Below are positions 17,379 through 43,430 of a stretch of DNA of 64,000 bases, piece by piece (within the stretch, counting starts at the first letter, position 1; every line of letters begins with the position of its first letter). The notes under the pieces are model-generated. The model was not told the DNA's origin. It saw nothing but the letters and a program-made list of their open reading frames with translations, and did no database searches. Both the position numbers and the translations under genes were made by a program. Source of the DNA: Spiractinospora alimapuensis (GTDB lineage: Bacteria > Actinomycetota > Actinomycetes > Streptosporangiales > Streptosporangiaceae); NCBI RefSeq assembly GCF_018437505.1, contig NZ_CP072467.1, forward strand, positions 5,170,010-5,234,009. The letters run 5' to 3'.

Positions 17379-17399
17379 GATGACTCCCACCTACGCCGG

Positions 17400-18697: not shown

Positions 18698-18946
18698 ATG
18701 CCAGAGCGTGCGAATATCGACTTTGATTCTGTTGTCAAGATGATCGAAGAAGTCTCGGGTGTTTCGGGGGATTCGGTCCGGAAAGACAGTCTTCTCGTCG
18801 AGGACCTGGATATCGACTCCCTCACCATGGTGGAAATAGCGTTCAATCTGCAGCGGGAGATCGGGATCGAGATCCCCGACGAGAAGCTCGCCGACGTACG
18901 CACCCCTCAGGACCTCCACGACTTGTTGATCAACGGTGACCACTAG
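18698..18946 (+). CDS. Acyl carrier protein 1
   Basis: Free-standing carrier protein of 82 residues. Ser41 in 'DLDIDSLTMVEIAFNL' is the 4'-phosphopantetheine attachment site, and the acidic helix pattern is typical. It is the first gene of a rightward unit with the short acyl-AMP ligase (54 bp downstream) and the ammonia-lyase, so it probably carries the acid made by those two enzymes. GC content is lower than in its neighbours. Confidence 0.9.
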   Translation: MPERANIDFDSVVKMIEEVSGVSGDSVRKDSLLVEDLDIDSLTMVEIAFNLQREIGIEIPDEKLADVRTPQDLHDLLINGDH

Positions 18947-25788: not shown

Positions 25789-25919
25789 TTTCCGCCTTTC
25801 GGTTTCGAGGTCGCGCATTGCTGTCTACGGACGCGCCGAGTATTCTCGAATTCACGATTCCCGCTGAAGGGTTCACTGTATCGCGGTGTCAAGAATTACT
25901 GCCGACTCGGATGGTGTGC

Positions 25920-26792
25920 ATGAAGGGGATCATACTCGCCGGTGGTGGCGGGACCCGATTAATGCCGGTCACCTCCACCGTTTCCAAACAACTGTTACCC
26001 GTGTTCGACAAGCCGATGATCTACTATCCACTGTCCGTGTTGATGTTGGCGAACATCAGGGAAGTTCTCATAATATGTTCGCCGGATTCAATGGCGCCGA
26101 TTCAGGCGGCCCTGGGCGACGGTTCTCGCATCGGCATCGACATCAGCTACGCCCTCCAAGAGGAACCGCGGGGCATCGCCGACGCGTATCGGGTGGGGGC
26201 GGACTACGTCGACGGCTCCAGCTCGGCGCTCATCCTGGGCGACAACATCTTCCACGGACCAGGCTTCAGCCTGACGCTGCGTCAGGCGCGGGAGAAATTG
26301 GACGGATGTTTCCTGTTCGGCCACACCGTGTCCGACCCCGAGCGCTACGCCGTCGGAGAGGTCGACGAGAACGAGGAACTCGTTCGGATCGAGGAGAAGC
26401 CCGAGGCGCCCCGGGCCAACAACGCGATCACCGGACTGTACTTCTACGACGCGGACGTCGTGGAGATCGCCCGCCAGATACAACCGTCCCCGCGTGGAGA
26501 ACTGGAGATCACGGACGTCAACCAGGTCTACCTGGAGATGGGGCGGGTCGGGTTCGAGCCGCTGGGACGTGGATTCACCTGGCTGGACGCCGGCACGTAC
26601 CGGTCGTTGCAGGACGCGAGTCAGTACGTGCAGATGATCGCCGACCGGCAGGGGATCAGGGTCGCCTGCCTGGAGGAGGTCGCGGCCCGCATGGGGTTCA
26701 TCGACAGCGACGCGTGCTACGAACTCGGTCTGGCGATGCGCGGATCGGAGTACGGGCGCTACGTCATGAGTGTCGCCGCCGAACTCGGGTGA
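25920..26792 (+). CDS. rmlA: Glucose-1-phosphate thymidylyltransferase
   Basis: Makes dTDP-glucose, the entry step of the sugar pathway. The 290-residue protein has 'ILAGGGGTRLMPVTSTVSKQ' (nucleotide loop and catalytic Lys), 'DKPMIYYPLSVLM', 'LGDNIFHG' (metal Asp) and 'RGFTWLDAGTY'. The start is ATG 25920; in-frame codons upstream have no homology. Codons 14 and 26 are TTA (25959 and 25995), rare in such genomes and a hint of bldA control. It lies 13 bp before rmlB. Confidence 0.95.
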   Translation: MKGIILAGGGGTRLMPVTSTVSKQLLPVFDKPMIYYPLSVLMLANIREVLIICSPDSMAPIQAALGDGSRIGIDISYALQEEPRGIADAYRVGADYVDGSSSALILGDNIFHGPGFSLTLRQAREKLDGCFLFGHTVSDPERYAVGEVDENEELVRIEEKPEAPRANNAITGLYFYDADVVEIARQIQPSPRGELEITDVNQVYLEMGRVGFEPLGRGFTWLDAGTYRSLQDASQYVQMIADRQGIRVACLEEVAARMGFIDSDACYELGLAMRGSEYGRYVMSVAAELG

Positions 26793-26805
26793 TGGAGGGA
26801 GAGCG

Positions 26806-27816
26806 ATGAGGATAGTCGTCACCGGTGGCGCCGGCTTCGTGGGTTCGAACTTCGTCCGCCGGATCCTGGACGAGCGGGACCCCGCGATCCCCGGCGTGAC
26901 CGAGCTGGTGCTCGTGGACCTGCTGACGTACGCGGGAAACCGGTCCAGCGTCGTCGAGGTCCTGGCGGACCCGCGGGTGCGGTTCATCCACGGCGACGTG
27001 CGCGATCCCGACGTGGTCCGCGCGGCCTGCGCGGGGTCGAGGATCGTGGTGCACTTCGCGGCGGAGAGCCACGTGGACCGCTCGATCGAGAATGGGACAC
27101 GGTTTCTGGACACCAACGTCATGGGGTCCCACGTCCTGTTCGAGGCCGCCGCCGCCGCGGGCGCGGAACGGGTCGTGCTCGTCTCCACCGACGAGGTGTG
27201 CGGCTCCCTCGCCGAAGGCGAGGCCGACGAGGACGCGCCCCAGAGGCCCAACTCCCTGTACTCCGCCTCCAAGGGCGCGGCCGAACTCGTGGCGCGCGCA
27301 TGGCACGTGACCCACGGGCTGCCGGTGTCGACGGTGCGCGCTTGCAACACCTACGGGCCCTTCCAACACCCGGAGAAACTCATCCCGCGGTTCGTCACCA
27401 ATCTGCTGCGAGGCGAGAAACTTCCCCTGTACGGCGACGGGCGCAATATCAGAGAATGGATGCACGTCCACGACCACTGTCAGGGTGTCGCCCTGGTCGC
27501 CCAGAAAGGAAGAGCGGGCGAGACCTACCACCTGGGTAGCGGATTCCGGACCAGTAATCTGGACCTGACGGCGCGAATTCTACGGCTCGCCGGGCAGGAC
27601 TGGGAATCGGTGTGTTATGTTCCCGACAGGAAAGGGCACGACTTCCGATATTCGCTCGCCACCCGGAAAATCAGAACCGAACTGGGTTTTCGGGTGGAAG
27701 TTCCGTTCGACGTCGGGCTGGAGCGCACTTTCGGATGGTATTTCGAGAACAGGGACTGGTGGTCGCCACTGCGCGCCGGTCGTGGGGTTCCCGTGACGGA
27801 TCCGGGGCTCCCGTGA
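26806..27816 (+). CDS. rmlB: dTDP-glucose 4,6-dehydratase
   Basis: Converts dTDP-glucose to dTDP-4-keto-6-deoxyglucose. The 336-residue protein has 'VVTGGAGFVGSNFVRRIL' (NAD site), 'VVHFAAESHVDRSI', 'VLVSTDEVCG' with the catalytic Thr-Asp-Glu, and 'SLYSASKGAAELVAR' with Tyr and Lys. The start is ATG 26806 after GATGGAGGGAGAGC. It forms a unit with rmlA, and carrier protein 2 and the ketosynthase follow. Confidence 0.95.
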   Translation: MRIVVTGGAGFVGSNFVRRILDERDPAIPGVTELVLVDLLTYAGNRSSVVEVLADPRVRFIHGDVRDPDVVRAACAGSRIVVHFAAESHVDRSIENGTRFLDTNVMGSHVLFEAAAAAGAERVVLVSTDEVCGSLAEGEADEDAPQRPNSLYSASKGAAELVARAWHVTHGLPVSTVRACNTYGPFQHPEKLIPRFVTNLLRGEKLPLYGDGRNIREWMHVHDHCQGVALVAQKGRAGETYHLGSGFRTSNLDLTARILRLAGQDWESVCYVPDRKGHDFRYSLATRKIRTELGFRVEVPFDVGLERTFGWYFENRDWWSPLRAGRGVPVTDPGLP

Positions 27817-27835
27817 TGAGGATGAGGTGAGTCGC

Positions 27836-28090
27836 GTGCCGGACCAGAGTGAGGTACTCGCGGAGATCGAGCAGTTCGTCAAGGAGTCGCTGAACACCGC
27901 GGGTGACGGTGACCTGGCCACGAACATTCACGACCTGGACTCCTTCAGCGTCGTCCGGCTGCTTCTGCACCTGGAACGGGCGTTCGACGTCTCGGTCCTG
28001 GAGGAGCTGCCCAACTTCGAGGGCGTGGAGTTCGCCGAGCTCGCCGAGTTCGTGGTGCGAGCGGCCGAGCAGCCAACGACGAACTCCTGA
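27836..28090 (+). CDS. Acyl carrier protein 2
   Basis: Second free carrier protein, 84 residues. Ser36 in 'IHDLDSFSVVRLLLHLE' is the phosphopantetheine site, with Phe replacing the usual Leu after it. GTG 27836 is the likely start because a near-perfect GAGGTGA site lies 5 bases upstream; GTG 27827 overlaps that site. It precedes the ketosynthase by 19 bp, so it probably presents the acyl or malonyl group for condensation. Confidence 0.85.
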   Translation: MPDQSEVLAEIEQFVKESLNTAGDGDLATNIHDLDSFSVVRLLLHLERAFDVSVLEELPNFEGVEFAELAEFVVRAAEQPTTNS

Positions 28091-28109: not shown

Positions 28110-29372
28110 ATGGCGACGGTCCCATCCGACATCCTCCGTCCCGAACGCGTCGTCATCACCGGAAGGGGAGTGGTGTCACCGGTCGGACCGAACTGGGAGC
28201 AGACCTGGCGCGGCCTCGTCGCCGGCCGGAGCGGCATCGGCCCCATCACGGAGTTCGAGGCCGATGACCTGCCCGTACGCATCGGCGGCGAGCTGACCGG
28301 CTTCGACGCCACCGACCACCTCTCCCGCACCCTGCTGCGCCGTGTCGACTGGCCGCTGCGCCCGCTCCTCGCCGCCGCCCAGATGGCGCGGGACGAGGCC
28401 GGCCTCGCCCTGGACACGGCGACGGCCCCCCGGGCCGGCGTGCTCGCCGGCTCCATCATCGGTTCGACCCGCCTGGCCATCGCCAGCCAAAACGCCCTCG
28501 ACCAGGAAGGCTACGGAGGGGTGGGCCCCTTCGTCTTCCCCACCATGGGTGTCAGCGTGGCGGGTGAGATGAGCCTCCTCCTGGGCGCCCGCGGCCCGTG
28601 CATGGAACTCGTGGCCGCCTGCGCGACCGGGACGGCGTGTGTGGGCGAGGGGATGCGCCTCATCCAGAGCGGTGCCGCCGACGTGGTCTTCGCTGGGGGA
28701 GTGGACGCGTTCACCCGCCTCGAGATCGCCGCGGCCGCGCGCGCCCGAACACTGTCCCGCGACAACGACGACCCCGCCCGGGCCAGTCGCCCTTTCGACA
28801 CCGGCCGCGACGGCTTCGTCATGGCGGCCGGAGCGGGAGTCCTGGTCCTGGAGAGCCTCAGCCACGCCCGACGCCGCGACGCCGAGATCCTCGCCGAGGT
28901 CGCGGGATACGCCGCCACCAGTGACGCCCACCAGCTCACGGCCCCACCCCCCGAGGCCCCCGAGGTCGAACGGGCCGTCCGCCGCGCGCTCGCCTCCGCC
29001 GACGTGGAACCAGCCGACGTGGACTACGTGAACGCCCACGGCACGGCCACTCCCACCAACGACACCAACGAGCTCACCGTGCTCCGGCGGGTTCTGCCCG
29101 ACCACGCCACGACGACCCCCGTCAGCTCCACGAAGAGCATGACCGGCCACATGCTCGCCGCCAGCGGTGCCGTCGAAGCCGCCGTCGTCACGGAGGTCGT
29201 CCGCACCGGCGTCATTCCTCCCACCGTCAACTGCGACCATCCTGAGTTCCCCGACATGGCGCTCGTCCCACACAGGGCGATCACCCGCCCTGTCGACGTG
29301 GCCCTCAGCAACTCCTTCGGCTTCGGCGGCCACAACGCCGTCCTGGCCGTCCGCGCCTGGCGGGAGAGCTGA
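28110..29372 (+). CDS. Beta-ketoacyl-ACP synthase (FabF/KAS II-like)
   Basis: A 420-residue condensing enzyme with all catalytic residues visible: Cys171 in 'ELVAACATGTACVGEG', His310 in 'NAHGTATPTND', Lys342 and His347 in 'SSTKSMTGHMLAASG'. It would extend or transfer an acyl group on carrier protein 2. No ketoreductase, dehydratase or chain-length partner is nearby. It may therefore catalyse a single condensation or rely on the host fatty-acid enzymes. The start is ATG 28110 with GGGAAGG upstream. It ends the rmlA-rmlB-ACP-KS unit. Confidence 0.9.
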   Translation: MATVPSDILRPERVVITGRGVVSPVGPNWEQTWRGLVAGRSGIGPITEFEADDLPVRIGGELTGFDATDHLSRTLLRRVDWPLRPLLAAAQMARDEAGLALDTATAPRAGVLAGSIIGSTRLAIASQNALDQEGYGGVGPFVFPTMGVSVAGEMSLLLGARGPCMELVAACATGTACVGEGMRLIQSGAADVVFAGGVDAFTRLEIAAAARARTLSRDNDDPARASRPFDTGRDGFVMAAGAGVLVLESLSHARRRDAEILAEVAGYAATSDAHQLTAPPPEAPEVERAVRRALASADVEPADVDYVNAHGTATPTNDTNELTVLRRVLPDHATTTPVSSTKSMTGHMLAASGAVEAAVVTEVVRTGVIPPTVNCDHPEFPDMALVPHRAITRPVDVALSNSFGFGGHNAVLAVRAWRES

Positions 29373-29791: not shown

Positions 29792-32140
29792 CTAGTCGGT
29801 CTGGATGAGGATGCGGGTCCGCGTGTGTTCCTCGATGGCGTCGCGGCTGTACAGGAGGGGGAAGTACTCGCCTGTCTCCCACCTGGGGGCCAGGTCGTCG
29901 TAGTGGGGGCTTCGAGGGTCACCGGACTGGCCGGGGGCGTTGACAGCGAGGCTGTTGTCCCAGGCGCCGACGTCGATGACGACGCGGGATGTCGCTCCGG
30001 CGATCTGTTGGTAGGTCAGTGGATGGTAGACGGACATGTTGACGGTCTCCCAGGCACCGCCGCGTTGGATGGGGCCGACGTTCTCGCCCAGGGGGTGGAC
30101 GAACTCGGTGTGGTGCAGGTCGCCCCAGCGCCATTCGCCGGGGTCGGGGCCGAGACTCTCCGTGAGGTCCCCGAAGGCGGAGGCGAGGGTCATCTCGAAC
30201 ATCGCGTCCCGGGTCGCCTCACCCTCGGGGCCGAACCAGTCTTCGGGGTTCTCCGCGATGTCGACGATGGTGGAGACGTCGGGGACGAGGATCCGTTCCG
30301 CCGCCTCCGGGGCGAGGACGTAGATGAGGGTGTAGCTCAGGTGCCGGATCAGCCAGGCCTCGAACAGGGCGGCCTCCGCCGAGTCGGCGGACGCGTCGTA
30401 GTCCTCCCAGGACGTCAGAAGCGCGACCGCGGCCGCCGCCGCCTCGTCCTCGGGATCCAGGTTCTCGAGCAGGGGGACGATGCTGCGGGCGGGGAGGGAC
30501 ACCTCGTCGTACTGCAGCTCCGCCATGCCGTCCACGGAGTGGCTCGAGGAACCGCCGAGAACCTCGGTGATCCGGTCGTACCGGTAGGGCGCGGACCACT
30601 CGAAGCCGTAGTTCGGGGCGAGGTCGTCCGAGACCGGCAGGTTGTTGCCGTTGGCGAAGAACCCGTCGTCGGGGTTGAGGCTGTGCGGTAGCTCCTCTGG
30701 GTCCCGGAAGCCGTCCCACTCGTACCGGCCGTCGCCCGGGACCGGCAGCAGACCGTCGTGGTCGGGACGCACCGGGGTCAGGCCGGCCGGCTGCCACCCG
30801 ATGTTCCCCTCGGCATCGGCGTAGGTGTAGTTCAGTGGCGGCGAGCCCGCGTCCTGGGCCGCGGAACGGAACTCGTCGAAGTCCGACGCGTCGAGCATCC
30901 CCATCGACGCCAGATACGGGCTGGTTCCCGGCTCCAACCAGACGGTGCGCAGCGCGAAGGCCGTGTCGTTCTCCTCGTCGGTGTACAACACCGGGCCGTG
31001 CCGGGTGAACGCCACCTCGACCGACACCGGTTCCTCACCGGCGACCTCCACCTCCTCGGTGACGATGTCCATGGACTCCCACCCGTCGTCGTAGCGGTAC
31101 TGCGTGGGGTCGTCCGGGTTCAGTTCGTAGACGTACAGGTCCTCCTGGTCGATCCCGAACACGGTGAGCCCGAAGGCGACGGAGCCGTTGTGCCCCAGCG
31201 CGACTCCGGGGGCCAGCGGTTCGCCGGCGCCCACGACGTCGAACTCCGGCGTCGACAGGTGCTGCAGGTAACGCACCGACGGGGAGGGGGTGAAGCGATG
31301 TGGGTCGTTGGCCAGGATGGGGCGCCCGGTGTCGGTGCGCTCCGGGCCGACCGCCCAGGCGTTACTGCCCTCACCCGGCACACGTCCGATCACCGACTCC
31401 ACCTCGCCGTCACCGGTGAAGGTGAGCGTCTCGGTCGCCAACCGATAGGTGTCCAGCACCTCCTCGGGCACCGCGCACACGTCGAGGCCCTCCGGGACGG
31501 CGGGCTCCCAGGCCGGGCGCAGCTCCTGCTCGAGCCGGTGCGCGTTCACGTTCTCGTCGCACGCGATGAGTGAGCGGTTGACCTCCGACTCGAGGTTGTA
31601 GACGAGGCCGTGGTTGCGGATCCGCACCACGTCCTCCGGGGACCAGTGCTCCGGCTCGTACTCGAGTTCCTCGAACTCCGGGGGCAGACCACCGGGCAGG
31701 TTCTCCACGAGGTCGACGTAGAAATTGATGCCCTCGGTGAAACTCTCGACCGAGTTCCGGGTTCGTGGGTCGTAGCTCGCCCATTCCTCGTCGATGTCGC
31801 CTCGGTAGAGGAAATGTCGCGCCGCGGTGTCGGTCTCCACATAGTCGGGCCCGAGGACTTCGGCGAGTTCACCGAGTCCATGTCGGCGCCACAGGTCCAT
31901 CTGGAACAGTCGGTCCCGGGCAACGGAAAACCCCTGGGCGAAGAACAGGTCTTCGGAATTGTCGGCGTAGATGTGGGGTACCCCCCACTCGTCCACGAGG
32001 ATTTCCACCTCGCTGTCCACGTGGGACGTCTGGTAGGACGTGACCTCGTCGCCGCTGGCGGAGCTCGCGGCAAGCGGGGCCATGAGGACAATGGCCGCCG
32101 CTGTCGCGAGTCCACGGACGGCGATCCCAGATCGCTGCAT
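29792..32140 (-). CDS. Secreted penicillin-acylase-family N-terminal-nucleophile hydrolase
   Basis: A 782-residue Ntn hydrolase. A signal peptide is clear: basic start, then 'GLATAAAIVLMAPLAASSASG' (residues 10-30). The acylase alpha region has 'VEILVDEWGVPHIYAD'. Autocleavage is expected before Ser259 in 'VPGEGSNAWAVGPER', giving alpha and beta chains with Ser259 as nucleophile; 'NDPHRFTPSPSVRYLQHL' follows as usual. ATG 32140 has AAGGAGAGG upstream. It lies alone between the acyl/sugar genes and glycosyltransferase 2. It may remove an N-acyl group outside the cell (maturation, prodrug release or self-protection). The substrate is unknown. Confidence 0.87.
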   Translation of the reverse strand: MQRSGIAVRGLATAAAIVLMAPLAASSASGDEVTSYQTSHVDSEVEILVDEWGVPHIYADNSEDLFFAQGFSVARDRLFQMDLWRRHGLGELAEVLGPDYVETDTAARHFLYRGDIDEEWASYDPRTRNSVESFTEGINFYVDLVENLPGGLPPEFEELEYEPEHWSPEDVVRIRNHGLVYNLESEVNRSLIACDENVNAHRLEQELRPAWEPAVPEGLDVCAVPEEVLDTYRLATETLTFTGDGEVESVIGRVPGEGSNAWAVGPERTDTGRPILANDPHRFTPSPSVRYLQHLSTPEFDVVGAGEPLAPGVALGHNGSVAFGLTVFGIDQEDLYVYELNPDDPTQYRYDDGWESMDIVTEEVEVAGEEPVSVEVAFTRHGPVLYTDEENDTAFALRTVWLEPGTSPYLASMGMLDASDFDEFRSAAQDAGSPPLNYTYADAEGNIGWQPAGLTPVRPDHDGLLPVPGDGRYEWDGFRDPEELPHSLNPDDGFFANGNNLPVSDDLAPNYGFEWSAPYRYDRITEVLGGSSSHSVDGMAELQYDEVSLPARSIVPLLENLDPEDEAAAAAVALLTSWEDYDASADSAEAALFEAWLIRHLSYTLIYVLAPEAAERILVPDVSTIVDIAENPEDWFGPEGEATRDAMFEMTLASAFGDLTESLGPDPGEWRWGDLHHTEFVHPLGENVGPIQRGGAWETVNMSVYHPLTYQQIAGATSRVVIDVGAWDNSLAVNAPGQSGDPRSPHYDDLAPRWETGEYFPLLYSRDAIEEHTRTRILIQTD

Positions 32141-32362
32141 TCCGTCCTCTCCTTCGTGAGTCTCGGCCGGTTTCGTGTTTCCCCGATCGGCGTACAGCGC
32201 GAATAGTGATGGCAAGAAATGAAAGGGGCCAAAGCAACACCAGAGTGCCGGATGGGTTCTGGATAGGCTATTTCGTGGCCTGATTTTCGGTCAATGCTTG
32301 AATTGGGTCGCATGGAGTGGTCGACTGGAATTGTTGGCGAAATTTGCGTGAGGGGGCAGTGG

Positions 32363-33616
32363 TTGCGCGTCCTTTTCTGTCTCTATTCCGAGCGAACGCA
32401 TTTCTACAGCGTCGTGCCGCTGGCGTGGGCCTTCGCCGCCGCGGGGCACGAGGTGCGGGTCGCGAGTCAGCCCGCCCTCACCCCGCTGGTCACCGGAGCG
32501 GGGTTGTCCGCGGTCCCGGTAGGAGAGGATCACCAGTTGCGGCGCATGTTGACCGCCTTCCCCCGGCTGCTCCAGCACGCGGGAGGGTTCGATCTCCCTC
32601 CCTTCACCACCGCTGACCGGGAGGCGACGGACGTTTCCTGGGAGGAACTGCGCGACGGGTACGCGAACTTCGCCTGCTGGTGGTTCCGGCTGGTCAACGA
32701 GCCGATGGCCCAAGGGCTGGTCGACTTCGCGCGCCAGTGGCGCCCCGATCTCGTGGTCTGGGAGCCGGGGACGTTCGTCGCGGGCGTCGCCGCGGCGTCC
32801 GTCGACGCGCGGCACGTGCGGATCCTCGGCGGGTCGGACTTCTACGCCCGGGTCCGCGAGCACTTCCTCGCCGTGCGGGCCGAACGTCCCGCCGAGCGGA
32901 CGGAGGACCCGCTGGGGGAGTGGGTGGCCCAGCTCGCCGGCCGCCACGGCGTTGAGTATCGGGAGGAACTCCTCACCGGGCAGGCGACGATCGACCAATT
33001 GCCGGCGTCGTTCCGGCTTCGGACGGACGTCGACTACCTTGCCATGCGCTACGTCCCCTACAACGGCCCCGCGGCGGTCGCCGGGTGGTTGCGCGAACGC
33101 CCGGAGCGGGCCCGGGTGGCGGTCACCCTCGGCCACAGCCAGGCGGGACTCGGCGGGTCGGACATCCCCCTACCGGGGATCCTGCGCTCCTTGGCCGACG
33201 ACGACGTGGAAGTCGTCGTGGCGACGGGGGACAGCGAACTCGCGGCCCGTACCGACCTTCCCGCCAACGTTCGGCACGTCGGTGTGGTGCCCCTGAACGA
33301 GCTGGCCGCCACCTGCTCCCTGGTCGTCCATCATGGCGGTTTCGGCAGCATCGCGACCGCGCTGCGCTGGGGCGTCCCCCAGTTGGCGCTGCCCGAACAG
33401 CACGACGCCCACATCATGTCCCGGGGGCTTGTCGCCCGGGGGGCCGGCGCGCTTATACCGGGATCAGAGGCCGCTCCCGACCGGGTTCGTGCCGAGGTCC
33501 TCCGGCTGCTCGCCTCACCCGCGGCCGCGGCGGGCGCGCGCGGTCTCCGGAACGAGCTCGCGGCGACCCCCTCGCCATCCGACGTGGTCGCCACCCTGGC
33601 GACCGCGTCGGCCTGA
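32363..33616 (+). CDS. Glycosyltransferase 2 (EryCIII/DesVII-like, GT1)
   Basis: A 417-residue paralogue of glycosyltransferase 1, sharing long stretches such as 'ATIDQLP.SFRL' and 'MRYVPYNGP.AV..WLRE'. The sugar-nucleotide signature is 'LVVHHGGFGSIATALRWGVPQLALP'. The likely start is TTG 32363: AGGGGGC lies 5 bases upstream and it aligns with Met1 of the paralogue; in-frame ATG and GTG codons from 32294 lack a site. It is divergent from the acylase and convergent with the C-methyltransferase. Two paralogues suggest two sugars, or two acceptor positions. Confidence 0.86.
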   Translation: MRVLFCLYSERTHFYSVVPLAWAFAAAGHEVRVASQPALTPLVTGAGLSAVPVGEDHQLRRMLTAFPRLLQHAGGFDLPPFTTADREATDVSWEELRDGYANFACWWFRLVNEPMAQGLVDFARQWRPDLVVWEPGTFVAGVAAASVDARHVRILGGSDFYARVREHFLAVRAERPAERTEDPLGEWVAQLAGRHGVEYREELLTGQATIDQLPASFRLRTDVDYLAMRYVPYNGPAAVAGWLRERPERARVAVTLGHSQAGLGGSDIPLPGILRSLADDDVEVVVATGDSELAARTDLPANVRHVGVVPLNELAATCSLVVHHGGFGSIATALRWGVPQLALPEQHDAHIMSRGLVARGAGALIPGSEAAPDRVRAEVLRLLASPAAAAGARGLRNELAATPSPSDVVATLATASA

Positions 33617-33661: not shown

Positions 33662-34879
33662 CTAGCTCATGTGGACCTCGGGGACGTAGCGGATCCACTG
33701 GCCACCGGAGTCCCGGAACCCCTGTTCCTTGCCGATGATCTCTTCGGCGTGGTTCCAGGCGAACAACACGGCGTAGTCCGGGTAGTCCAGGGTGAACGTC
33801 TCGGGCGGACGGACCTCGATTCCGGACCCCGGCGTGAGTCGCGCCTGCTTGGCCGGCGTCGTGTCACTGATGTATTCGACCAGGTCCGGGCCGATACCGC
33901 AGTAGTTCAGCACCGTCGCGCTCTTGGCGGTCGCCCCGTAGCCGGCGACGCGCGCTCCCTCGTCACGCAGCCGGGTGAGCAGCGAAACGAGGTCGGCGCG
34001 GATCCGGTCCACCCGCTCCGCGAAGGCACGCAGACCCGCTGGTTCGGTCAGTCCCCGTTCTCTCTCCTCACGCAACAGCGCGGAGACGGCCGGACTGGGG
34101 GAGTGCTCACCCGATCGGCCAAGGGTGTAGCGGACCTCGCCACCGTGGACGCCCAGGCGTTCGACATCGACCAGCTCCAGACCGCAGCGCGCCGCCAGGT
34201 TGTGTACGGCGTTCCCGGTGAACAGGTAGAAGTGCTCGTCGTAGATCTGGTCGAAGGACGACTGGCGCACGATGTCGCCGAAGTAGGGGTCCTCGAACAC
34301 GAGGACGCCGCCGGGGGCGAGCAGCTCACGTACGCCGCGCAGCACCGGCACGACGTAGGGGATGTGGCACAGCGTGTTGGCCGCGTAGACGACGTCCGCT
34401 GGACCGCGGTCCCGCAGAATCCCCGCCGCCGTCTCCTCGTCGAAGAACACGTTCCACACCTCGACCCCGGCGGCCCGGGCCAGGTCCGCGACCCCACCGG
34501 AGGGTTCCACGCCGAGATGCCGCACCCCACGTTCCGCGAGGCGGCGCAGCATCACCCCGTCGTTGCACCCCAGCTCGACGACGAAGGGGTCGCTGGAGTG
34601 CGTGGGCGCGCGGTTGGCGAACTCGGCGAAGTGTTGGCGCATGACCGCGGAGCCGGAGGACAGATAGGGGTAGTCCGCGTGGAACATGCGCTCGCGCGGG
34701 ACTTCCTCCATGAGCTGCACCATCCCGCACCCCTCGCAGCGGCCGACGGAGAGGTGGAAGAAGAACTCCGCGCCGGTGTCCTCGGGGGCGCGGAAGTGAT
34801 CGGAGAGGGGTTGTCGTCCCAGGTCAAGGAATTCCAGCAGCGGACTGTCGCACACTCGACAACGATGGGAGGTGGTCAA
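33662..34879 (-). CDS. NDP-hexose 3-C-methyltransferase (EvaC/TylCIII-like)
   Basis: A 405-residue SAM enzyme that would methylate C-3 of the 3-keto sugar before transamination, giving the branched vancosamine-type skeleton. The zinc ligands Cys7, Cys10, Cys48 and Cys51 are visible. 'VVELGCNDGVMLRRL' binds SAM, 'IYDEHFYLF' has the catalytic Tyr/Glu/His set, and 'GYGATAKSATVLNYCGI' is the C-terminal domain signature. The start is TTG 34879 with AGGAGG seven bases upstream. It is the last gene of the lanthipeptide operon, physically linking the sugar and peptide modules. Confidence 0.9.
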   Translation of the reverse strand: MTTSHRCRVCDSPLLEFLDLGRQPLSDHFRAPEDTGAEFFFHLSVGRCEGCGMVQLMEEVPRERMFHADYPYLSSGSAVMRQHFAEFANRAPTHSSDPFVVELGCNDGVMLRRLAERGVRHLGVEPSGGVADLARAAGVEVWNVFFDEETAAGILRDRGPADVVYAANTLCHIPYVVPVLRGVRELLAPGGVLVFEDPYFGDIVRQSSFDQIYDEHFYLFTGNAVHNLAARCGLELVDVERLGVHGGEVRYTLGRSGEHSPSPAVSALLREERERGLTEPAGLRAFAERVDRIRADLVSLLTRLRDEGARVAGYGATAKSATVLNYCGIGPDLVEYISDTTPAKQARLTPGSGIEVRPPETFTLDYPDYAVLFAWNHAEEIIGKEQGFRDSGGQWIRYVPEVHMS

Positions 34880-34943: not shown

Positions 34944-35726
34944 CTAGCCTTCGCGCCGCCAGTACACGGCCGTGCCGTCGATTTCCTCGATCGTTTCGGT
35001 GACGCCGTGTGCCTCGCGGTACTCGTGTACGGCCATCCGGCACGGCAACAGCGCGTGGTAGTCGTCGACGATGACGTAGCCGCCGGGGGACAGCCGCGGG
35101 TAGAGGTGAGTCAGTGCCTCGAAGGTCGACTGGTACATGTCCCCGTCCAGGCGCATCACGGAGAGCCGTTCGATCGGCGCGCCGGGAAGGGTGTCACGGA
35201 AGTACCCGCTGAGTAGTCGAACCTGGTCGTCGAGGAGGTCGTAGCGCCGGAAGTTCTCCCGGACCTCCTCCTCCGAGACGGCGAGCACGTCATTGATGAC
35301 GTGCATCGGGATGATGCGGTCCACCGGGAACGCCGCCGGGTCGGGTTCGGGGACACCCGCGAAGGAGTCCGCGACCCAGACCCGCCTGTCGTCGACGTCG
35401 TGCGCCTTGAGGATCGCCCGCATGAAGATGGTCGCGCCGCCGCGCCAGACACCGGTCTCGATGAGGTCACCGGGAACGTCGTCGGCGAGTACCCGCTCCA
35501 CGCAACGGCGTAGGTTCCCCAGCCTGGTGGTACCGATCATGGTGTGAGCGTGGGCGGGAATGTCCTGACCGCTATCGCGCTTGGCCTCGTCGAACTCGAT
35601 GTGGGGTAGTTCGTCCTTGAACTCGTGGATCGTGGCCGCCCAGCCCCGTGCGTGGTCCTGGTAGATCGTGTTGGTGACGACCCGCTGCATCAGATCCAGG
35701 TAGAGATCTCGTGGGCTCGCGCCCAT
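34944..35726 (-). CDS. TylF/MycF-type O-methyltransferase
   Basis: A 260-residue metal-dependent SAM methyltransferase of the macrocin O-methyltransferase family. Motifs are 'DLIETGVWRGGATIFMRAIL' (SAM site), 'WVADSFAGVPEPD', 'MRLDGDMYQSTFEALTHLYP' (metal Asp) and 'GGYVIVDDYHALLPCR'. The start is ATG 35726 (or GTG 35729) after AAGGAGG. Family members usually methylate sugar hydroxyls after transfer, so O-methylation of an attached sugar is likely; the position is unknown. It follows the precursor genes beyond a hairpin. Confidence 0.87.
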   Translation of the reverse strand: MGASPRDLYLDLMQRVVTNTIYQDHARGWAATIHEFKDELPHIEFDEAKRDSGQDIPAHAHTMIGTTRLGNLRRCVERVLADDVPGDLIETGVWRGGATIFMRAILKAHDVDDRRVWVADSFAGVPEPDPAAFPVDRIIPMHVINDVLAVSEEEVRENFRRYDLLDDQVRLLSGYFRDTLPGAPIERLSVMRLDGDMYQSTFEALTHLYPRLSPGGYVIVDDYHALLPCRMAVHEYREAHGVTETIEEIDGTAVYWRREG

Positions 35727-35779
35727 CACGTGGTCCTCCTTCGGCCTCGACGGATGACGCGCCGGCGGTGATGACGACG

Positions 35780-35806
35780 GTGTGCGGCGGCAGTGCCGCC
35801 GCACAC
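35780..35806 (-). terminator. Hairpin after precursor 1
   Basis: Arms GTGTGCGGCGGCA and TGCCGCCGCACAC are exact reverse complements around one base (realistically an 11-bp stem with a 5-nt loop). It lies between the first precursor gene and the O-methyltransferase gene, so it could attenuate downstream expression or stabilise the precursor mRNA. Confidence 0.65.
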
Positions 35807-35826
35807 CCGGACAGGCGTCAGTCGCC

Positions 35827-35913
35827 TCATCCGCACAGCTTGATGCTCGCTGAGCTGGGGATGGCGGCCTCCTCAGTGGGGACCTCCAACGCCTGGAGTT
35901 CGAGAACCTGCAT
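35827..35913 (-). CDS. Class III lanthipeptide precursor 1 (core ends C-G)
   Basis: A 28-residue precursor. The leader carries VLELQ (residues 3-7), fitting the hydrophobic 'LLxLQ' element recognised by class III synthetases. The likely core is AAIPSSASIKLCG. Ser20-x-x-Ser23-x-x-x-Cys27 matches the labionin/avionin ring pattern. The start is ATG 35913 with GGGAGGTGA five bases upstream, an ideal site that excludes longer frames. Unlike its two sisters, it has Gly after the Cys, which would block direct oxidative decarboxylation of that Cys. It is the third precursor in transcription order. Confidence 0.88.
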   Translation of the reverse strand: MQVLELQALEVPTEEAAIPSSASIKLCG

Positions 35914-36050
35914 GTCGTCACCTCCCTCTCGGGCCGGCCCGCCGCGGGGCCGATGTGCGCCGCCCCGGCGGAGCCAGTGGGCCCACGGGGCGACAGCCAC
36001 GACGGTGGAGCGCGGCAGCGAAGCGTCGTGGGGCGCGGGCCTCGCGGCGG

Positions 36051-36080
36051 GGTGTGCGGTGGACGAGGCCACCGCACACC
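36051..36080 (-). terminator. Hairpin after precursor 2
   Basis: Perfect 12-bp stem GGTGTGCGGTGG / CCACCGCACACC with loop ACGAGG, 13 bp past the stop of precursor 2. It is similar in sequence to the hairpin after precursor 1. Confidence 0.65.
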
Positions 36081-36093
36081 TACGTGCTGGGTC

Positions 36094-36177
36094 CTAACAG
36101 ACCTTCACGCTCGCTGAGCTGGGGATGGCGGCCTCCTCGGTGGGGACCTCCAGCGCCTGGAGTTCGAGAACCTGCAT
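36094..36177 (-). CDS. Class III lanthipeptide precursor 2 (core ends in Cys)
   Basis: A 27-residue precursor whose first 23 residues are identical to precursor 1. The core ends SSASVKVC, with Ser20-x-x-Ser23-x-x-x-Cys27 and the ring Cys as the last residue, the arrangement needed for an avionin if a decarboxylase acts. The start is ATG 36177 with an ideal GGAGGTGA site. It arose by tandem duplication; the repeat unit is about 244-264 bp including leader and hairpin. Confidence 0.88.
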   Translation of the reverse strand: MQVLELQALEVPTEEAAIPSSASVKVC

Positions 36178-36294
36178 GTCGTCACCTCCTTCGTGGTTCG
36201 CTGGGCCGTGCGTCGTGGGGTCCATGGACAGCGGGCCGCTCACGATGGCCGAGCGGAGCAGCGGAGCGTTCCGATGCGCCACGGGCCCCCACGG

Positions 36295-36317
36295 GTGCGG
36301 CGGCCGGGCCGCCGCAC
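36295..36317 (-). terminator. Hairpin after precursor 3
   Basis: 10-bp stem GTGCGGCGGC / GCCGCCGCAC with a 3-nt loop, between precursors 3 and 2. It shares the GTGCGGCGG arm with the other two precursor hairpins. Confidence 0.55.
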
Positions 36318-36337
36318 GTCCTGGGAGAAACTCGGCC

Positions 36338-36421
36338 TCAGCAGAACTTCACGCTGGCCGAGCTGGGGATGGCGGCCTCCTCAGTGGGGACCTCCAGCGC
36401 CTGGAGTTCGAGAACCTGCAC
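36338..36421 (-). CDS. Class III lanthipeptide precursor 3 (core ends in Cys)
   Basis: A 27-residue precursor with the same leader as the other two and a core ending SSASVKFC. The start is GTG 36421 rather than ATG, with GGGAGGTGA five bases upstream. That site lies inside the last codons of the synthetase gene, whose stop is 4 bp away, so translation is probably coupled. The ring pattern Ser20-x-x-Ser23-x-x-x-Cys27 is kept. It is the first precursor to be transcribed after the synthetase. Confidence 0.87.
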   Translation of the reverse strand: MQVLELQALEVPTEEAAIPSSASVKFC

Positions 36422-39040: not shown

Positions 39041-39721
39041 TCAGCTCGAGTCTCCGTGTCGTACGGACTGTGCGAGGGAAATGGAGGTCCTGGGGTTGTC
39101 CGCCAAGTGACTGGCGAGAATCTTCCTCGCCTTTTCCTTTTCCTCCAAAGGAATGGTGGGCGGTATCGGGCCCATGTCGGGGGCGTTTGGTTGTACCGCG
39201 TCAATTTGGAAGTACTCATCGCGGAGAATCGACCAAACGATCATGTCGTGGTACTCGCCGTCCAGGAACAGAGCATCACGCATAATTCCGTCGATCGTCA
39301 ACAGGTTCGCGAAATTCGAGATCAGCATGTCCAGCATTCGATGGTTGTACGACGCCGTCATGAACTGCACACGGTGCGCGTCGTAGGACATGAACAGCAC
39401 CTCGGTCGCCCGGGCCATCGCCTCGGCCCCGAAACCGAGGTGCCATTTCCTCCTGTCGCCGACCGCGACCGTCACCTCGTAGTTCCGGTAGAACCCGGCC
39501 GTCTTGATAATGATGATTCCGATCGGGTTCTTACGTTTGTCGACGATCATCAGGAGACTGATCTCCTTGTTCAGGTACGCCTCGCGCACCTTCGCCGGGT
39601 CGTGACGGGTTATCTGGGTGTTGAGGAATCCCGCGCTGTCGGATCCGCCCGTGATCCAGTCACAAATGTCGTCGAATTCGGAAAGTCGCGGTGGACGGAG
39701 GTCGATCAGAGTTCCCTGCAT
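39041..39721 (-). CDS. GNAT-family N-acyltransferase
   Basis: A 226-residue GNAT protein of the RimJ/RimL-like type. 'EVTVAVGDRRKWHLGFGAEAMARA' fits the CoA/pantetheine-binding motif A region, and 'HRVQFMTASYNHRMLDMLISNFA' motif B. The last 40 residues are an extension. It sits directly before the synthetase with a 2-bp gap, so it belongs to peptide tailoring. In goadvionin biosynthesis a GNAT joins a carrier-bound acyl chain to the lanthipeptide N-terminus. A similar job here, using the acyl group on ACP 1 or 2, is my inference. GC content is lower than in its neighbours. Alternatives are simple acetylation or self-resistance. Confidence 0.78.
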   Translation of the reverse strand: MQGTLIDLRPPRLSEFDDICDWITGGSDSAGFLNTQITRHDPAKVREAYLNKEISLLMIVDKRKNPIGIIIIKTAGFYRNYEVTVAVGDRRKWHLGFGAEAMARATEVLFMSYDAHRVQFMTASYNHRMLDMLISNFANLLTIDGIMRDALFLDGEYHDMIVWSILRDEYFQIDAVQPNAPDMGPIPPTIPLEEKEKARKILASHLADNPRTSISLAQSVRHGDSS

Positions 39722-39791: not shown

Positions 39792-41675
39792 TCAGGGCGT
39801 CTCCCGCGGGACGGATGGATCAGGGACCGCGCTGTCGGTGATCAGAAGTTGGGTCGCGGCCAGGTCGCGGTACATGGCGTCGACGCGTACGAGCTCGTCG
39901 TGCGTCCCCACGGCCCGGATCCGTCCCTCATCCATCACCAGGATCCGGTCCGCGCTGGCCACAGTGGACAGCCGGTGCGCCACGACGAGTACCGTCGTCT
40001 GTTCCCCCGCGCGCTGGATGAGGTCGCGCAACGCCGCCTCGTTGACGGCGTCCAGTTGCGAGGTGACCTCGTCGAGCAGGAGGAGGCGGGGTTCACGCAG
40101 GAGTGCGCGCGCGATCGCGAGACGCTGGCGCTCACCCCCGGACAGGCGGTTCCCCCGGTGCCCGAGGTCGGAGTGCACGGTGTCCGGAAAGCTGCCCACG
40201 AGCTGATCCAACCGCGTGCTCACCAGGACGTCGTCCACACGTCGCCGACTCACCCCGGTCAGCCCCAGAGTGAGGTTGTCCAGCGCCGTCCCCGCGATGA
40301 CCGGTGCGTCCTGTTCCACGTAGCCGATGCTGGTGCGCAGCGCGGTCGGGGGAGTGTCGTAGATGTCCTCACCGTCGATGAGGATCTGTCCCGAATCGAT
40401 CGTGTAGAACCGCTCGACCAGTGAGAACACCGTGGACTTGCCGGCCCCCGACGGGCCGACGATGGCCGTGATCCCCCGCGCCGGGACATCGAAGCTCACC
40501 CCGTGGTGGGTGGGGTGGTGACTTCCGGGATAGGTGAACACCACGTCGCGGAAGGAGAGCGTGGCCGGTCGGGCGACCGCCTCGGAGGTGGACGTGGCGC
40601 TCACCTCAGTGGCTCCCGTTTCGGGACGGGTGTCCGGCTCCGAGGCCTCCGGCGCCGCGTCGTTCTCCGCCGCCTCGTTCTCCGGCTCGGTCGCCACGTC
40701 CAGCACCTCCTGGATGCGGCGCACCGCCGCCGCGCCGATGTGGAAGTTGCGGGTGGCCGAGACCAGCGACCCCAGTGGGGGGATCATGTAAAAGAGGTAG
40801 AGGAGGAACGCGATCAGGGTCCCGATGGTGATCGCCCCGGTGGCGACCCGCAGCCCACCCACGCCGAGCACCACGAGAAACGCGAGCTGGATGGCCAGAC
40901 TCGACGCGGTACCCGACACCGCGCTGAGTTTGTTGAGGCTCAGTCCGTGCCGCCAGGCCCGGTGTGCCGCGTTCTCGGCCCGTTCGGCCTCCTGTCCCTC
41001 CGCGCCCGCGGCCTTGATCGTGCGGAAGGCGCCGAGGCTCCGCTCGATCACGGAACCGAGCTCGGCCACGCTCTCCTGGGTGCGCGTGGTCACGCGGCGG
41101 AGCCGAGGAATGATCAACGCGACTCCGCTCAGGGTGAGCAGCAGGACGACGAGTGTGACCAGGAAGAGCACCGGATCCATGAACGCCATGAACACGACGA
41201 TGGCGACCAGCATGATCGCGCCCGTCACCGACTCGACCATCGCCTGGGACACCATGGTCCGCAGCAACGTGGTGTCGGCGGTGAGGCGCGACATCAGGTC
41301 CCCGGGCTGGTACCGCGCCGACTCGGGGACGCGCATCCAGAGAATGCGGCGGATCAGCCCTGTTCGCGAATCGAGGACGACGGATTCGCCGACGCGGGAG
41401 AGAACGTAGTAGCCGAACGCGTTGAATACCGCGGAGAGGATGACGAACAGGGAGAGGAACACGAGCGGCCGAATGACCGTCTCGTCGACCTCCAAGGCGT
41501 CAACCACCATTCGGGTGGCGAACGGTTGGATCAGCCCGGCCAGGCTTCCGAGCATGGCGAGTATTCCGCCGAGGAACAGTGGCTTTCGGTACGGGCTCAG
41601 ATAGTCCAGGGTCTCGCGCCACGCCGACACCTGGAGCACACTGGGGCGGCCCGAATGCTCGTCATTCTCCGGCAT
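39792..41675 (-). CDS. ABC exporter (fused membrane and ATPase domains)
   Basis: A 627-residue half-transporter with six membrane segments in residues 30-310 and an ATPase domain from about 375. Walker A is 'GPSGAGKST' (407-415), the signature 'LSGGERQRLAIARALL' and Walker B 'LLLLDEVTSQLD'. An acidic, Ala/Glu/Thr-rich linker of about 40 residues (330-370) separates the domains. There is no N-terminal C39 peptidase domain, so it does not cut leaders. It is first in the operon before GNAT, synthetase and precursors, so product export or immunity is likely. The start is ATG 41675 after GAGGGATCT. Confidence 0.9.
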   Translation of the reverse strand: MPENDEHSGRPSVLQVSAWRETLDYLSPYRKPLFLGGILAMLGSLAGLIQPFATRMVVDALEVDETVIRPLVFLSLFVILSAVFNAFGYYVLSRVGESVVLDSRTGLIRRILWMRVPESARYQPGDLMSRLTADTTLLRTMVSQAMVESVTGAIMLVAIVVFMAFMDPVLFLVTLVVLLLTLSGVALIIPRLRRVTTRTQESVAELGSVIERSLGAFRTIKAAGAEGQEAERAENAAHRAWRHGLSLNKLSAVSGTASSLAIQLAFLVVLGVGGLRVATGAITIGTLIAFLLYLFYMIPPLGSLVSATRNFHIGAAAVRRIQEVLDVATEPENEAAENDAAPEASEPDTRPETGATEVSATSTSEAVARPATLSFRDVVFTYPGSHHPTHHGVSFDVPARGITAIVGPSGAGKSTVFSLVERFYTIDSGQILIDGEDIYDTPPTALRTSIGYVEQDAPVIAGTALDNLTLGLTGVSRRRVDDVLVSTRLDQLVGSFPDTVHSDLGHRGNRLSGGERQRLAIARALLREPRLLLLDEVTSQLDAVNEAALRDLIQRAGEQTTVLVVAHRLSTVASADRILVMDEGRIRAVGTHDELVRVDAMYRDLAATQLLITDSAVPDPSVPRETP

Positions 41676-41873: not shown

Positions 41874-43121
41874 TTAGGTTCGGGCGTGGGGGCGTCCGTA
41901 GGAGAGGCGGCGGAGCAGGACCTCGGCCGGGCCGCGTCGTCCGGCGCGTTCCATCAGGTAGGCCAGCACGACGGTCAGTGCCCACACGCCGACCGCGAAG
42001 GCGAGGAGGCTGGCGCTGTGGAGGTAGACGCCGAGCCCGAGTCCCCAGGCGGCCAGCAGGGGGGCGCTGATGACGGATTGGGCGAGGTAGCAGGACAGGG
42101 AACGTTTGCCCACGGCGGTCACGGCCGTCGTCACCACGCCGTGGTGGGCGGACCGTTGCCGGAGGTGGTGTCCGATGAGTCCGAACACGGCCACGTAGCC
42201 CAGGCCGCACAGGAGACCCGTGAAGGGCTGGGTGGACGCGAACGCCCACAGCGCGTTCTCCGGGACGTTCCAGACGCCCGTGTGGGACAGGGCGTGGGGC
42301 AGGCCGCCGAGCCACCCGACCGTGATTCCCACGACCGCCGTGGTGCGCAGGAGCCGGAGGTGCTTCCCGGCCTCCTCGAGGATCCGTCGGTTGGCCGCCC
42401 AGAAGGCGATCAGCATCGCGATGGGGACACTCAGGGTGAGTAGACCGGATGTCAGAACCACCACTGGCCATAGGGATATCCGCTCCACGGCCCCCGCGAC
42501 GTAGTCCGGGTTCTCGACGTTGTAGGAGAGCAGGACGATGTAGTCGCCGAAGCTCGTGTTCTCCATCGGGATGTCGCGGGTCGCCATGAGGTAGGCCCCG
42601 ACCGAGGAGAACACGGCCGCGAAGCCCAGCGCGAAGGTGCCGATGCCGGCCCAGACGAGCTGCGTTCTTCCGGTCCGGCGCAGGAAGAGCCACGCCAGCA
42701 CCAGGCCCGCGAGTCCGTACGCGCCGAGGATGTCGCCCACGAAGAGGAGGGCGGCGTGGACGAGGCCGAATCCGAGGAGCCACCAGTTCCTGCGGCGCAG
42801 CACCCGTCGGGCGTCGGATTCCGACGCGCCGGCGTTACGCTGCCGCAGGAATAGCTGCACCATTCCGTACCCGAACAGGAACGCGAACATCGGATAAACC
42901 CGCATGTCCACCGTGGTGATGATCAGTCCCTGCGTGATCTTGTCGATCGCCGATCCGTCGTCTGGGTGAAACCCGGACTCCGAAAGCTCACGGCCCAGCA
43001 GATAGATCGGTGTGTTCGCGATCGAAATCAGCAGCAACATGACGCCGCGGGCGAGGTCCGGTGCCAGTACGCGTTCGGTGGGTTTGGTGGGTCCTGGTGC
43101 GTCGGTACGCGTTTGGTTCAT
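41874..43121 (-). CDS. DUF418/YeiB-family membrane protein
   Basis: A 415-residue integral membrane protein with about 10 hydrophobic helices. The N-terminal 'DLARGVMLLLISIANTPIYL' and central 'RVYPMFAFLFGYGMVQLFLRQ' are the family's recognisable blocks, and the C-terminal DUF418 region includes 'GKRSLSCYLAQSVI'. The function of the family is poorly defined; it is related to acyltransferase-like membrane proteins. The start is ATG 43121 (GTG 43124 is possible). It sits upstream of the exporter operon and may belong to the biosynthetic locus or mark its right edge. Confidence 0.8.
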   Translation of the reverse strand: MNQTRTDAPGPTKPTERVLAPDLARGVMLLLISIANTPIYLLGRELSESGFHPDDGSAIDKITQGLIITTVDMRVYPMFAFLFGYGMVQLFLRQRNAGASESDARRVLRRRNWWLLGFGLVHAALLFVGDILGAYGLAGLVLAWLFLRRTGRTQLVWAGIGTFALGFAAVFSSVGAYLMATRDIPMENTSFGDYIVLLSYNVENPDYVAGAVERISLWPVVVLTSGLLTLSVPIAMLIAFWAANRRILEEAGKHLRLLRTTAVVGITVGWLGGLPHALSHTGVWNVPENALWAFASTQPFTGLLCGLGYVAVFGLIGHHLRQRSAHHGVVTTAVTAVGKRSLSCYLAQSVISAPLLAAWGLGLGVYLHSASLLAFAVGVWALTVVLAYLMERAGRRGPAEVLLRRLSYGRPHART

Positions 43122-43430
43122 CACCGGACACCTTTGGATATACGTCTATTTCATCGTAATTGTATGGTGGCGGTCTCTGGTGACGGAATAGCGCGCACGA
43201 GGAGATGTGTCGGGAAAAACGGTTCCCGAGGTCAATGTTCCGTCGGGAAAAGGTTGGTCTTTCGGGGAGTGTGTGTGGGCCGAAATCGACCGGGGGCGCA
43301 TTCCATCAGGAAGCCCACACGTTCCCGGTCGCCGCCGTGCCGGAGGGAGTGCCCGCTGCCGGCTGGCTGGTGCGTCGCGTTCGCACCGGGGAACGTGTGG
43401 GCGGAGTCCTGCTGAGGGGTGGTGGGTGAG
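43122..43430. other. Leader region with competing inverted repeats
   Basis: A 309-bp gap between ulaB and the DUF418 gene. Segment 43313-43326 (GCCCACACGTTCCC) can pair with 43389-43402 over 14 bp, or its first 8 bases can pair with 43273-43280. The two pairings exclude each other. A 74-codon rightward frame crosses it, but I cannot support it as a gene. Confidence 0.45.

Follow-up and report, generated by a model that had tools for sequence, protein, structure and literature searches.

We analysed a 64,000-nucleotide stretch of the genome of Spiractinospora alimapuensis (assembly GCF_018437505.1, contig NZ_CP072467.1, positions 5,170,010 to 5,234,009), hereafter the window, in which three very small open reading frames (ORFs) lie in tandem directly behind a gene for a class III lanthionine synthetase, LanKC. 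The three ORFs, designated P1 to P3, encode lanthipeptide precursors with identical leaders, and the genes around them suggest that the peptides would form one of the two parts of a hybrid product.

Precursor genes P1 to P3

P1 (36421-36338, minus strand) begins with GTG and encodes 27 residues, VQVLELQALEVPTEEAAIPSSASVKFC when the initiator GTG is taken as Met, with a core ending SSASVKFC. P2 (36177-36094, minus strand, ATG start) encodes 27 residues ending SSASVKVC, and P3 (35913-35827, minus strand, ATG start) encodes 28 residues ending SSASIKLCG. An initial annotation of this DNA had described three such genes with these lengths and core ends, a shared leader, and a GTG start in the gene transcribed first, and the ORFs and translations place all of this exactly as it claimed. 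Its further claim of a ribosome-binding site before every start is borne out by GGAGGTGACGAC, which directly abuts the start codon in P1, P2 and P3; the Shine-Dalgarno site of P1 overlaps the end of the synthetase gene, the TGA inside GGAGGTGA being the LanKC stop codon. LanKC itself (39038-36426, minus strand) scores 787 bits against NF038151 (cut-off 575, residues 6-832), with matches to RamC_N, Pkinase and LANC_like; lyase, kinase and cyclase-like domains are all present. The precursors carry the leader motif L.LQ as VLELQ and the core pattern S-x2-S-x3-C as SSASxKxC, in keeping with their earlier assignment as class III precursors.

Pairwise DNA identity among the three genes is 88-90%, whereas the two spacers between them, when aligned, share 120 identical positions against 32 mismatches and 36 gap positions and are clearly less alike. 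Synonymous differences fall at codons 9, 13, 21, 22 and 27. Apart from the start codon and the additional Gly of P3, amino-acid changes occur only at codons 24 (V/I) and 26 (F/V/L), which agrees with the few variable positions after the second ring Ser that had been noted at the outset. Because the differences in codons 2-23 are synonymous only, selection on the leader and ring residues, not chance, would account for their identity. As judged from these patterns, P1-P3 is a maintained tandem family in which variation is limited to the tail and to the stretch that separates the second ring Ser from Cys. The small set of congeners proposed in the initial annotation is thus upheld at the level of sequence, not of product.

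Longer in-frame ORFs reach upstream of the short starts (81 residues for P3, 62 for P2 and 502 for P1). Nevertheless, the forms of 27-28 codons are the likely translated ones, since a Shine-Dalgarno site stands at each short start and ORFs of the same length with the same leader recur in other genera. In one large mining study with RODEO, products shorter than 30 residues were discarded and the longest remaining ORF for each stop codon was kept (PMC7268733); given that floor, true forms of 27-28 residues would be dropped and longer read-throughs kept at best.

A perfect GC-rich inverted repeat follows each precursor gene (36295-36317, 36051-36080 and 35779-35807, with arms of 11, 12 and 14 bp). 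A scan of the regions between the precursors found neither promoter nor intrinsic terminator and, as the repeats have no T run, they may perhaps act as mRNA stabilisers or attenuators.

Gene content of the surrounding cluster

The initial annotation made no mention of the larger cluster around the precursor genes, with its GNAT, KS, TAL-like, amino-sugar and glycosyltransferase genes, or of the lack of an avionin-forming decarboxylase in the window. On the strand of the precursors, genes for an ABC exporter (39792-41675, minus strand; 54-57% identical to exporters of the sister clusters described below) and a GNAT-superfamily acyltransferase (39041-39721, minus strand) precede LanKC, and those for a TylF-type O-methyltransferase (34944-35726, minus strand; PF05711, 351 bits) and a sugar C-methyltransferase (33662-34879, minus strand; PF08484, PF08421, PF13489) follow downstream. 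The GNAT, a putative acyl-to-peptide transferase, matches PF13302 with 26.5 bits (cut-off 25.4) and has homologs near LanKC genes elsewhere; the closest folds in the PDB to its AlphaFold model (mean pLDDT 75.6) are mostly SpeG-type N-acetyltransferases.

An apparent aromatic acid module comprises an acyl carrier protein (ACP; 18698-18946, plus strand; PF00550), a 4-coumarate ligase-like adenylate-forming enzyme (19001-20119, plus strand; TIGR02372, 84.8 bits, cut-off 334.7) and a tyrosine ammonia-lyase (TAL)-like MIO enzyme (20116-21636, plus strand, start codon chosen by inspection). The last matches PF00221 and, below curated cut-offs, the models for both HAL and TAL. At the position where another MIO-family ORF in the window (61576-62757; presumably HutH) shows Ser-His, it carries His-Leu, the pair of tyrosine-type enzymes. 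This pair and the ligase-like neighbour together suggest that the module would provide a 4-coumaroyl group. Activity as an aminomutase giving a beta-amino acid was considered and is less likely, given the same neighbour and the TAL-type residues. Of 394 genomes searched within the class, 10 had the ligase.

Other genes appear suited to acyl assembly: one of the fatty acyl-AMP ligase (FAAL) family (22727-24550, plus strand; family match), one for a FabF-type ketosynthase (KS; 28110-29372, plus strand; 58-65% identical to the KS of four sister genomes) and, beside it, one for a small ACP-like protein (27827-28090, plus strand) that has no family match, a DSF motif by inspection, and homologs near KS genes in two further loci, L123 and L125. 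With KS, ACP, FAAL and GNAT, the cluster holds both the acyl biosynthesis genes and the acyltransferase expected of a lipolanthine cluster.

Sugar genes lie on both sides of these. They encode a dTDP-glucose 4,6-dehydratase (26770-27816, plus strand; TIGR01181, 362.5 bits, just below the cut-off of 365.1), a sugar-phosphate nucleotidyltransferase (25818-26792, plus strand; PF00483), a DegT/DnrJ/EryC1 sugar aminotransferase (16266-17390, minus strand; PF01041), an NDP-hexose 2,3-dehydratase (14781-16262, minus strand; PF03559), a dTDP-sugar 3,5-epimerase (13928-14545, minus strand; PF00908) and a short-chain dehydrogenase/reductase that is a putative sugar 4-ketoreductase (12897-13973, minus strand; PF01370). 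Two EryCIII-like glycosyltransferases (GTs), GT1 (24526-25818, minus strand) and GT2 (32294-33616, plus strand), match TIGR04516. The gene families of 4-epivancosamine formation (2,3-dehydratase, aminotransferase, C-methyltransferase, epimerase and ketoreductase) are present and would fit a TDP-epivancosamine-type pathway.

An LmbU-family transcriptional regulator (17400-18065, minus strand; NF038070, 220 bits) and a penicillin-amidase family protein (29792-32215, minus strand; PF01804, 698 bits), with a signal-like N-terminus by inspection, are also encoded; the latter could have a part in joining the halves of the product, in its deacylation or in its activation. The cluster probably ends at about 12.8 kb, because urate-pathway genes (uricase, hydroxyisourate hydrolase, OHCU decarboxylase, permease) begin beyond that point. 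On the other flank a gene for a DUF418 membrane protein (41874-43124) adjoins the ABC exporter and is followed by those for a phosphotransferase system permease and a PdxT-like protein; locus L048 has a homolog of the DUF418 protein (40% identity) at a distance of about 2 kb from its GNAT gene.

Related synthetase loci and sister clusters

A small-ORF-aware search beside LanKC genes, as the initial annotation had proposed, recovered short precursors in several families. A LanKC scan of a collection of species genomes gave 79 loci, which come from the 80 best among 185 confirmed relatives and span several families. A fixed precursor filter assigned precursors of at most 33 residues to 21 of them and longer ones to 44; the 14 loci with no filtered precursor, L029 among them, were excluded from the Fisher test. 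GNAT homologs accompany 15 of the 21 short-precursor loci and none of the 44 others (p 2.6e-10, kinship ignored), and several precursor copies occur in 16/21 as against 1/44 (kinship likewise ignored). Locus L029, with a GNAT and three 27-residue precursors missed by the ribosome-site filter, brings the GNAT count to 16 of 22, and precursors of 27-32 residues are accordingly found in 22 of the 79 loci. KS also falls inside the flank in 8 of the 15 GNAT loci. Because the GNAT goes with short and never with longer precursors, short precursors appear to mark acyl-lanthipeptide hybrids of the lipolanthine or goadvionin kind. The description of P1-P3 as extremely short therefore holds against ordinary class III precursors, but in GNAT loci shortness is the rule and their length is unexceptional. 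Shortness alone is no proof of acylation, since two loci, L036 and L053 (Actinoallomurus and Actinomadura), have 32-residue precursors, ending ICCIQTN or ICCIHTA, with no GNAT, KS or LanD gene in the flank. Among the GNAT-bearing loci listed, the S-x2-S-x3-C spacing is confined to the window. A search with the GNAT found matches in 45 of 250 genomes of the family at E 1e-5 and 12 places at 1e-16 or better, the window's own counted; in genome G046 a GT, three precursor ORFs (27-29 residues by listed start), LanKC and GNAT stand together.

LanD-like flavoproteins were sought as matches to PF02441, the family of the avionin-forming decarboxylase. They lie inside the flank at five short-precursor loci (L052, L054, L061, L066 and L100) and about 12 kb from LanKC at L037 (Streptoalloteichus tenebrarius), where two different LanKC genes share one 22-kb stretch. 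At L066 and L100, possible microvionin-like clusters, LanKC and a LanD-like gene accompany 31-residue precursors ending S-x2-S-x3-C. The LanKC contigs of L029, L033, L046, L048, L051, L057, L084, L089 and L097 gave no PF02441 match, nor did the genome of L106; the nearest match to L093 is about 240 kb off, and a weak one 5 kb from L092 was discounted as an L122-type flavoprotein. Among the listed loci (L029 is outside the list), extension past the Cys is seen in 0 of 7 unique precursors from loci that have LanD and in 10 of 29 from the others, or in 0 of 8 and 10 of 28 when L037 is moved to the LanD side; L028 is a doubtful member of this count, its flavoprotein lying 24 kb away beside another LanKC match. 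With numbers so small, a tie between C-terminal extension and a missing LanD is not convincing.

Four Streptomyces and a Nocardiopsis have much the same gene combination as the window. In S. aureocirculatus (L033), S. alboflavus (L039), S. flavofungini (L042) and Streptomyces CB00316 (L051), genes for ACP, ligase, TAL-like enzyme, ABC exporter, FAAL, TylF, GNAT, LanKC, 27-residue precursors and a GT occupy 13-14 kb, and the fifth case is Nocardiopsis sp. MG754419 scaffold_76 (L048). The ABC gene of the four Streptomyces clusters sits between TAL and FAAL, lanthipeptide and aromatic genes being mixed, so that the modules are interleaved. A KS 58-65% identical to that of the window lies on another contig in the genomes of L033, L039, L051 and L048, with a GT, a C-methyltransferase and in part sugar genes; these contigs likely join those bearing LanKC. 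Identities between the window and these clusters, some of which yielded only part of the gene set, are 63-66% for TAL, TylF and C-methyltransferase and 50-57% for ABC, FAAL and ligase. Between the Nocardiopsis and Streptomyces clusters they are 51-52% for LanKC and 34-40% for GNAT.

Of the ten ligase-positive genomes, five have LanKC: that of the window, G046, G174, G183 and G204. The other five (G711, G033, G056, G133 and G198) showed no LanKC in the stretches read, G056 and G133 being short contigs. Genomes G174, G183 and G204 encode 32-residue precursors ending NSG[LIV]SY[VF]GCS, have at least five GT places, and gave no GNAT or KS match; they have a ketoacyl-ACP synthase III (KAS III)-like protein 61-62% identical to that of L097. 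That locus itself holds TAL, ligase, several GTs, LanKC and the KAS III-like protein, has no GNAT or KS match, and yielded no precursor in a relaxed scan. Since the LanKCs of G174, G183 and G204 group with those of L097 and of L066 and L100, apart from the GNAT hybrids (starred support in the tree), these groupings indicate either two or more separate unions of the TAL module with a lanthipeptide synthetase or an exchange of the synthetase. In the free trees, from a set of 84 LanKC rows and from 35 rows chosen out of these, the window LanKC stood on a long branch away from the TAL/GNAT hybrids; with the 35 rows, constraining it to a clade with them was not rejected by the approximately unbiased test (p 0.185).

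Predicted product, rival readings and known systems

The best reading of the cluster, one to which we give about an even chance, is that it makes three congeneric, hydroxycinnamoyl-capped, glycosylated small lanthipeptides, whose chemistry we infer from gene content. In the predicted order of catalytic steps, the one LanKC would act on all three precursors to give three congeners of about 8-10 residues, with cleavage predicted accordingly, each bearing a single S-x2-S-x3-C ring system, either labionin or lanthionine, and a C-terminus that is not decarboxylated. For the doubly dehydrated cores the computed [M+H]+ values are 792.37 (SSASVKFC), 744.37 (SSASVKVC) and 829.42 (SSASIKLCG); a cleavage site further upstream would add residues A/I/P, and a coumaroyl group would add 146.04. 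The tyrosine ammonia-lyase would form 4-coumarate, to be activated by the ligase-like enzyme and ACP; elongation or completion of the acyl group may fall to FAAL, KS and the second ACP, and the GNAT would couple it to the peptide, probably at the new N-terminus. From the two GTs the product would receive either one sugar or two, including at least one C-methylated 3-amino-2,3,6-trideoxyhexose of the epivancosamine type, possibly placed, as saccharomicin has it, on the phenol of the coumaroyl group. O-methylation by TylF and export by the ABC protein would complete the sequence.

Several observations weigh against this proposal. No product of the cluster is known. The scores of the ligase and dehydratase fall below curated cut-offs, and no KR or DH partners for the KS were recognised among the genes tested. 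Both GTs belong to an activator-dependent family, yet the 11 genome matches to the activator P450 are all below cut-off and none lies within the window. The sister clusters are imperfect counterparts: the S. flavofungini genome has no KS of the window type (best 39-41%), no FAAL or TylF was found in the two Nocardiopsis stretches, and the penicillin-amidase had no match in the sister loci searched. Window and sister clusters share only 40-42% identity in LanKC and 30-36% in GNAT and, as these diverge more than TAL, KS, TylF and C-methyltransferase, substrates may differ.

That divergence would also suit a locus at which two neighbouring clusters merely touch, one a lanthipeptide operon whose peptides GNAT and KS possibly fatty-acylate, the other a saccharomicin-like aromatic glycoside cluster. 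Each part does occur alone: TAL is missing from the flank in 11 of the 15 GNAT loci with short precursors (L048 included, its TAL being on another contig), and the five ligase-positive genomes in which no LanKC was seen have TAL and ligase together. That the combination is seen repeatedly and in interleaved order (the window, four Streptomyces, a Nocardiopsis), and that TAL is paired with LanKC a second time in G174, G183, G204 and L097, nevertheless make such mere adjacency unlikely.

Other alternatives would alter the peptide half. The GNAT might, as in selidamides, place the acyl group on a side chain, that of the core Lys at position 25: this residue is invariant across the three window cores and absent from the core of every other listed precursor, and GNATs acylating Lys or Orn side chains have been described; two unlisted cases lacking GNAT, L036 and one L053 precursor, do have a core Lys. 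We regard this as rather improbable, because homologous GNATs serve loci with Lys-free cores and the named class III precedents are N-terminal. A true lipolanthine, in which an enzyme encoded at another place would turn the C-terminal Cys into avionin by oxidative decarboxylation, would agree with the terminal Cys of P1 and P2 and with the LanD-like flavoproteins of the six related loci described above. But P3 ends Cys-Gly, and PF02441 has only two matches in the whole genome. Both lie outside the window, some 0.9 and 4 Mb away, and the sequence of one looks Dfp-like on inspection. With the decarboxylase absent from the window and Gly following Cys in P3, avionin is unlikely, a lipolanthine in the strict sense was rejected, and the version with a distant enzyme is given very little credence. 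Equally little inclines us towards ordinary unacylated class III peptides, such as morphogens, with the GNAT for self-protection: GNATs can serve resistance, but this one accompanies short precursors across families, and more than half of the GNAT loci also have the KS in the flank.

Beyond the preferred product, we tentatively propose, with somewhat less than even confidence, a new class of ribosomal glycoconjugates in which class III lanthipeptides acquired a saccharomicin-like glycosylated coumaroyl module on two or more occasions. One of these would have involved GNAT and 27-28-residue precursors (the window, the four Streptomyces and Nocardiopsis MG754419), another a KAS III-like enzyme together with 32-residue precursors (G174, G183 and G204, whose synthetase clade and KAS III-like protein L097 shares). 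If true, acylated lanthipeptides would come to include aromatic hybrids that bear amino sugars, lipolanthines would be connected with saccharomicin-type glycosides by a module common to both, and very short precursors would be a mark of such hybrids. A search of the open-access literature, with most subscription papers outside it, found no glycosylated cinnamoyl-lanthipeptide among the entries listed.

In lipoavitides, non-modular fatty acid synthesis is combined with an acyltransferase; the acyl part predicted for the window is instead aromatic and glycosylated. NAI-112 is a glycosylated class III lanthipeptide, a longer peptide with a deoxyhexose on Trp and no known acyl module; like the product predicted here, it combines a class III peptide with a sugar. 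Lipidation of class III lanthipeptides by GNATs has been described for microvionin, goadvionins and lipoavitides. Microvionin, a lipolanthine, is reported to be active against MRSA (methicillin-resistant Staphylococcus aureus) and pneumococci, and nocaviogua, whose acyl-capped core has eight residues and the pattern S-x2-S-x2-C, is described as having no antimicrobial activity in its A and B forms. Published sources drawn on in the analysis are PMC10435860, PMC7268733, PMC13060382, PMC9505594, PMC12159101, PMC3469384 and PMC8234114. Lipolanthines (microvionin, nocavionin, goadvionins, nocaviogua) share with the window a class III synthetase, a small one-bicycle core of the form S-x2-S-x(2,3)-C and a fatty acid or polyketide acyl part; the window differs in having no LanD, in the Gly after Cys of P3, in a ring spacing of x3 where nocaviogua has x2, and in its additional TAL-like, amino-sugar and glycosyltransferase genes. 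For those genes the saccharomicin (sam) cluster, compared by gene family and description, is the nearest known precedent. It is described with a TAL (Sam8), an acyl-CoA synthetase (Sam7), a penicillin-amidase-like protein (Sam36) and 4-epivancosamine, with glycosylation starting at the p-phenol. The window likewise has a penicillin-amidase family protein, epivancosamine-type gene families and glycosyltransferases, and its TAL-like and ligase-like enzymes, which score below the curated cut-offs, are candidate counterparts of the other two; but saccharomicin has taurine as its aglycone partner and ten glycosyltransferases, whereas the window has a lanthipeptide and two.
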